64,000 nt of DNA from Streptomyces tubercidicus (lineage in GTDB: Bacteria; Actinomycetota; Actinomycetes; Streptomycetales; Streptomycetaceae). Every line of letters starts with the position of its first letter. Position 1 is the stretch's first letter. Of the stretch, positions 23,449 through 23,841 are shown piece by piece. The stretch covers positions 8,122,001 to 8,186,000 of the forward strand of contig NZ_CP114205.1 of the NCBI RefSeq assembly GCF_027497495.1, in the 5' to 3' direction. The notes below the pieces were generated by a model. The model was not told the origin of the DNA and made no database searches. It saw nothing but the letters and a program-made list of their open reading frames with translations. The translations under genes were made by a program, and so were the position numbers.

Positions 23449-23500
23449 ACAGGGGCGGCGGGGCACCCTGCCTCATCCGACGGGTACGAGGGACAAAACG

Positions 23501-23534
23501 AAGGGCCCCTGCCTCAGTCGAGACAGGGGCCCTT
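23501..23534. terminator. Strong intrinsic terminator of the tRNA-like gene
   Basis: Perfect 11-base arms AAGGGCCCCTG (23501-23511) and CAGGGGCCCTT (23524-23534), extended by further pairs in the loop. Read on the minus strand it lies 4 bases after the encoded CCA of the tRNA-like gene and is followed by CGTTTTG, so it has a U-run only in that direction. It may also stop the plus-strand phosphatase transcript. Confidence 0.85.
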
Positions 23535-23538
23535 CATG

Positions 23539-23610
23539 TGGAGCGCCCGGCAGGCCTTGCACCTGCATTTCCCACCGGCTGGTGGGCGTCTTTCCTTGGA
23601 CCACAGACGC
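23539..23610 (-). tRNA. tRNA-like RNA gene with non-canonical anticodon loop
   Basis: A full 72-base cloverleaf can be drawn on the minus strand. The 7-base acceptor stem GCGTCTG/CGGGCGC has two G-U pairs; then TG, a 3-base D stem GTC/GAC with loop CAAGGAAA (containing GG), one base, an anticodon stem CCCAC/GTGGG, variable AAAT, a T stem GCAGG/CCTGC with loop TGCAAGG, discriminator T and an encoded CCA. Two oddities: the anticodon loop has only 6 bases (CAGCCG, lacking U33), and the T loop has G in place of U55. The terminator follows 4 bases on, and a TATGAT-like -10 box lies 35 bases upstream. It is either a pseudo-tRNA or a dedicated tRNA-like RNA; no amino acid can be assigned. Confidence 0.6.
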
Positions 23611-23841
23611 GTGACTCCGTGCGATCCGCCGGAGTTACGTCATGATCATACAGACTCGCGGGACCGGACCGCCACACACGCCAAGGCCACCCCCGATCAT
23701 GCCTTGCGCGTTCCTCGGCCCGCTCGCTGACGGCGGAAGTCCACCCGAGCGTGTCCGATTTCGCAATGCGCCGATTGTCGGCTGTCCGGTCCGGGCATCC
23801 TCGCCGTGGCATATGCCGCTACGGTGCGCGAAGGAGACGTC

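Follow-up and report, generated by a model that had tools for sequence, protein, structure and literature searches.

The window analysed here, a stretch of 64,000 nucleotides (nt) from Streptomyces tubercidicus (NZ_CP114205.1, positions 8,122,001 to 8,186,000), carries on its minus strand a 72-nt tRNA-like gene at 23539–23610, a candidate non-decoding glycine tRNA of the type that we call class A. A preliminary description of the window had reported a minus-strand cloverleaf of this length with two G-U pairs, four stems and a CCA end, and all of these are present in the sequence. Read from 23610 to 23539, the body consists of the 5' strand of the acceptor stem, GCGTCTG (23604–23610); TG; a D arm of three pairs, GTC-CAAGGAAA-GAC (23588–23601); G; the anticodon arm CCCAC-CAGCCG-GTGGG (23571–23586), whose loop has the form N-C-C (GCC here); AAAT; the T arm GCAGG-TGCAAGG-CCTGC (23550–23566); the 3' strand of the acceptor stem, CGGGCGC (23543–23549); the discriminator U73 (23542); and an encoded CCA (23539–23541). 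The G-U pairs are U4-G69 and U6-G67, both in the acceptor stem. The loop CAGCCG can be drawn with six bases or, alternatively, as a four-base loop closed by C32-G38, and minimum free energy folding favours the four-base form. ARAGORN did not recognise the window copy, a scan of the whole genome with RF00005 listed 66 tRNAs without it, and the Rfam comparison proposed in the preliminary description gave no match in its region at the gathering score; matches at permissive thresholds, mainly of microRNA models on the terminator, were rejected as chance matches.

The gene is predicted to form a transcription unit of its own. The TATGAT box that had been noted upstream is present at 23645–23650 on the minus strand, 34 nt before the body, and is followed by a conserved GATC (TATGATC); TAnnnT is the mapped -10 motif in S. 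lividans (PMC8079986). Among 187 independent homologous copies (classes A to C, defined below), which are related by descent and do not represent statistically independent events, a TAnnnT box lies upstream in 98%, mostly about 47 nt before G1 (shifted controls, 1–3%), GATC stands right after it in 88% (controls, 0–3%), and a hairpin of at least 8 pairs directly follows the 3' end in 88% (controls, 5–12%). The terminator hairpin of the window copy begins 4 nt past the body and leads to TTTT, as had been described; the 11 pairs then assigned to it were an understatement, as the stem formed by AAGGGCCCCTG and CAGGGGCCCTT continues in both directions, inward and outward, for a total of 18 pairs (23498–23537) with the T-run at its base (23495–23498), the whole intrinsic terminator spanning 23495–23537. 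Folding of the complete transcript also places a leader hairpin directly against G1 (23611–23638), and class A relatives have a similar inverted repeat. The predicted transcript (leader, body and terminator) folds better than shuffled sequences (z -5.4); the body alone, taken with a shift of two bases, folded no better than shuffles (z -0.4), an uninformative test. The window gene would thus give a small stand-alone transcript from its own promoter and terminator. All three of classes A, B and C conserve the GATC after the -10 box (23641–23650 in the window), which is also visible in many leaders of a further class, D; it could be a marker of the start region or a site for a regulator.

The window copy belongs to a large family. 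A DNA search aligned homologues over the body in 161 of 296 congeneric species. A covariance model built from seven-base-loop relatives (R1), which scores the window copy at 83.2 bits, gave matches in 168 of the 296 Streptomyces genomes; after setting aside five genomes with weak matches only (class D or uncertain), classes A to C were found in 163 species, with 299 copies in total and 1–9 per genome. The window genome (G000; 8.28 Mb chromosome) has five, at 8145539 (the window copy), 1899118, 1885669, 1507843 and 1446607. Class A, the window type, has the six-base loops CAGCCG, CAACCG, CTGCCG or CATCCG; class B, the commonest accessory class, has the loop CTTCCTG; and class C has CTCCAA. The six-base loop without U33 that had drawn attention to the window gene had been overread in scope: it belongs to the window subclass, whereas class B has seven bases and U33. 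The encoded CCA, correct for the window copy, had likewise been overread as a family trait: it occurs in 24 of 71 distinct A–C sequences, which fits S. coelicolor, where 53 of 65 tRNA genes have no encoded CCA (PMC4681348).

Copies of classes A to C sit in chromosome arms and on plasmids (70 plasmid records, 68 of Streptomyces and 2 of Streptantibioticus), and all 80 named genome contigs among the matches listed are from Streptomyces. A phage origin was rejected, there being no A–C match in 50,697 phage records. The neighbourhoods gave no partner either: across 41 loci no specific gene family recurred, only generic SDR, LysR and ABC transporter genes, six plasmid loci had no recurring specific neighbour, and the window copy lies beside a SpoIIE-type phosphatase and an unknown protein, neither of which points to one. 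Explanations based on a mobile element or a gene neighbour were rejected on these grounds. Class C copies occupy a core locus common to their lineage, a case of ordinary synteny.

The four-stem cloverleaf is backed by covariation. Across the 43 distinct sequences compared, drawn from every class, standard pairs make up 99.3% of cells (38–49% in slid controls), and 99 cells are compensatory against 31 in shuffles. The size of this effect is tilted towards the structure, because a structured model guided the all-class alignment and the structure of class D was taken from class D sequences themselves. Changes on both sides occur at 9 of 20 pairs. In the anticodon arm, the compensatory variants CCCGC/GCGGG and CCCAT/ATGGG of relatives are plain in a MAFFT alignment too. 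The presence of homologues in other Streptomyces and of compensatory stem changes, both named in the preliminary description as ways to check the gene, is thereby borne out.

The core relative of the family is class D, a 75-nt tRNA-Gly(UCC) encoded in the core chromosome beside the canonical tRNA-Gly(GCC); at one locus inspected by sequence it is flanked by genes resembling lsr2 and purSQL. A pattern combining a GUGC T arm with the acceptor end occurs in 295 of 296 Streptomyces species, with class D dominating, and the reversed control pattern gave few matches. The sole sampled Streptomyces species without a detectable class D gene is G157, a 160-contig assembly, through either a gap in the assembly or a true loss. 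A class D covariance model (R2), with which class D scores at least 97 bits and canonical tRNA-Gly about 75 bits or less, finds class D in Streptomycetaceae only: a sample of 297 genomes of the class held no match of class D strength outside this family, and five weak matches there (about 74 bits) include two that on inspection are canonical tRNA-Gly(CCC). Class D has a seven-base anticodon loop with U33 and the anticodon UCC, an invariant extra U most readily drawn as a T-stem bulge, an A-U pair at 51-63 with this bulge, and a D loop without GG (AGTAGYA), whereas classes A to C keep GG at 18-19. Analysed on its own, class D shows 100% pairing and 22 compensatory cells. In some species two or three class D genes stand in tandem at a spacing of about 117 nt (L132:1499-1807 and L139:1499-1692). 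A divergent GUGC tRNA-Gly(UCC)-like gene (GCGCCGGTGGTCGTAAGTAG...) lies at L072:1501-1573, outside classes A to D.

The bacterial glycine identity set comprises U73, G1-C72, C2-G71, G3-C70, C35 and C36 (PMC9976931). The three acceptor pairs and U73 are invariant in all 71 distinct A–C sequences and in the 19 class D sequences aligned, and CC is found in each anticodon loop listed, the numbering C35 C36 being an assignment in six-base loops. Elsewhere the sequences depart from a decoding tRNA. In class A, G, A or U stands at position 34, ahead of CC, and base 37 is variable or absent. All 71 A–C sequences have UGC in place of UUC at 54-56, the T arm thus carrying GUGC at 53-56, and the G at position 55 seen earlier in the window copy proved to be general; 67 of the 71 have A51-U63. 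Canonical Streptomyces tRNA-Gly(UCC) has G49-U65 and G51-C63, two pairs that have been named as strong EF-Tu determinants and as replaced in the cell-wall tRNA-Gly of S. aureus (PMC4052509). U73 shields Gly-tRNA from DTD, a protection that counts most when EF-Tu does not bind (PMC6097841). The window copy fails the decoding pattern in its six-base loop and in lacking U33 and U54-U55-C56. Since the genome also has canonical glycine tRNAs for CCC, UCC and GCC, the RNAs of classes A to D are extra to the decoding set. They have probably kept everything needed for loading with glycine and lost features needed for work on the ribosome. Outside the window, 3'-terminal partial copies of tRNA-Gly(CCC) (query bases 31-74) lie at G000:C1:4276382-4276425, 4280684-4280727 and 1488631-1488674; they probably arose as attachment-site duplications by integrative elements close to the tRNA-Gly(CCC) gene at 4288960.

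The peptidoglycan of Streptomyces has a glycine bridge, and FemAB genes are present in all 296 species; as GUGC tRNA-Gly genes occur in 295 of them, FemX is the acceptor that we favour. S. coelicolor FemX and VanK have been named as users of aminoacyl-tRNA (PMC4052509). We consider it rather probable that these genes encode glycine-charged tRNAs that avoid EF-Tu and take no part in decoding, and that give their glycine to an aminoacyltransferase, most likely FemX for the peptidoglycan bridge. The tRNA would be processed out of the small stand-alone transcript and charged with glycine by glycyl-tRNA synthetase (GlyRS); EF-Tu and the ribosome would use it poorly or not at all; and a Gly-tRNA-dependent aminoacyltransferase, most likely FemX, would attach it as the one glycine residue of the cross-bridge. 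The housekeeping role would fall to class D, in the core genome, and classes A to C, including the window copy, would be accessory extra copies. We infer transcription, charging, exclusion from translation and the role of FemX from sequence comparison.

Several observations weigh against this proposal. FemAB genes also occur in related families that have no class D, so FemX does not need these RNAs in general. The number of A–C copies is unrelated to the number of FemAB genes (Mann-Whitney p 0.80, Spearman -0.06), and a dedicated FemAB paralogue as partner was rejected on this ground. Classes A to C are absent from 45% of species, and no neighbour gene across class A and B loci indicates a partner enzyme. 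Class B, the most frequent accessory class, retains a complete seven-base UCC loop with U33 and might in principle take part in decoding.

A first alternative keeps the glycine donation and changes the recipient, classes A to C serving other Gly-tRNA-dependent enzymes, such as natural-product transferases of the FemAB/GNAT or PEARL kind, and not peptidoglycan. Such users exist in Streptomyces (Orf11 in BD-12 and DhpK in dehydrophos; PMC12945691), and the accessory, plasmid-borne and multicopy nature of these classes resembles specialised metabolism; however, no natural-product transferase gene recurs beside the copies, and the window genome has one FemAB gene against five class A copies. We regard this alternative as unlikely. 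It is rather improbable that the RNAs donate no glycine and act as a regulator, decoy or sink, either as tRNA-Gly mimics that would titrate some protein or toxin, such as GlyRS or a tRNA-modifying toxin, or as small regulatory RNAs. The strong terminator, leader hairpin, degenerate anticodon and plasmid-borne multicopy state would suit such a role, TacT recognises U73 and G71 (PMC9976931), and the B. cereus pseudo-tRNA tRNAOther has been suggested to lie within a regulatory RNA (PMC3399842). Against it, every sequence keeps the full GlyRS identity set, including U73, the protector of charged Gly-tRNA from DTD (PMC6097841), and the T-arm changes parallel those of known glycine donors.

The preliminary description had left the choice between an amino-acid donor and a regulator, both outside decoding. 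A role outside decoding, possibly as an amino-acid donor, is well supported by the compensatory changes, the conserved promoter and terminator, the glycine identity, GUGC and the position outside the canonical set. Going beyond that description, comparison of the sequences points to glycine as the amino acid and adds the family, its conserved core relative class D and its multicopy nature. That the genes are ordinary decoding tRNA-Gly isoacceptors of unusual sequence is very unlikely: classes B and D do have seven-base loops with U33 and the anticodon UCC, and ARAGORN recognises class B and some class D genes and calls many copies tRNA-Gly(tcc), but a canonical tRNA-Gly(UCC) is present in addition, G55 replaces a near-universal U55, the T stem is weakened or bulged, and class A has no standard anticodon loop and is missed by ARAGORN. 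That they are decaying pseudogenes or attachment-site remnants of mobile elements, as copies in chromosome arms and on plasmids might suggest, is scarcely credible and already contradicted, as had been anticipated for decay, by compensatory changes with 99.3% of pairs kept and by a promoter and terminator conserved across 187 copies, and the family has no array of 3'-truncated duplicates like that of tRNA-Gly(CCC).

Staphylococcal non-proteinogenic tRNA-Gly also carry GUGC in place of GTPsiC. Like them, the Streptomyces RNAs are extra to the decoding set and have A51-U63 for G51-C63 (PMC4052509), retain U73 (PMC6097841) and, in class D without GG, have an altered D loop. They differ in sequence and lineage, in the accessory, portable and multicopy character of classes A to C with their own promoter and terminator, in the six- or four-base anticodon loop of class A and in the bulged T stem of class D. 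The B. cereus tRNAOther is likewise a tRNA-like RNA outside translation (PMC3399842), but it is a single genomic-island locus within a longer regulatory RNA, whereas the Streptomyces family is genus-wide, with short predicted units and glycine identity. Canonical Streptomyces tRNA-Gly(UCC) shares the acceptor identity and, with classes B and D, the UCC anticodon; its T loop is UUCGAUU with G49-U65 and G51-C63, in contrast to UGCAAGG and A51-U63, and the D arm of classes A to C differs. Non-proteinogenic tRNA-Gly are thus already known in staphylococci, and the Streptomyces family is apparently undescribed; a literature search, with most subscription journals outside its coverage, found no description of a genus-wide core gene with a portable, self-terminating multicopy family bearing degenerate anticodon loops.

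We give an even chance to the wider proposal of a genus-wide non-decoding glycine tRNA system, in which one core gene, present in almost all species, would be joined by portable, self-terminated extras without the decoding end, carried in chromosome arms and on plasmids, as a private supply of glycine for the cell wall or specialised metabolism. For most cases, the way in which aminoacyl-tRNAs are drawn off from translation for cell-wall or natural-product synthesis has been described as unclear (PMC4052509). The family would explain unusual tRNA-Gly(UCC) predictions in annotated Streptomyces genomes and reveals genes overlooked by annotation tools. A tRNA family that keeps the elements for charging and has lost those for decoding, in the main antibiotic-producing genus, would make the question of diversion testable in laboratory Streptomyces.
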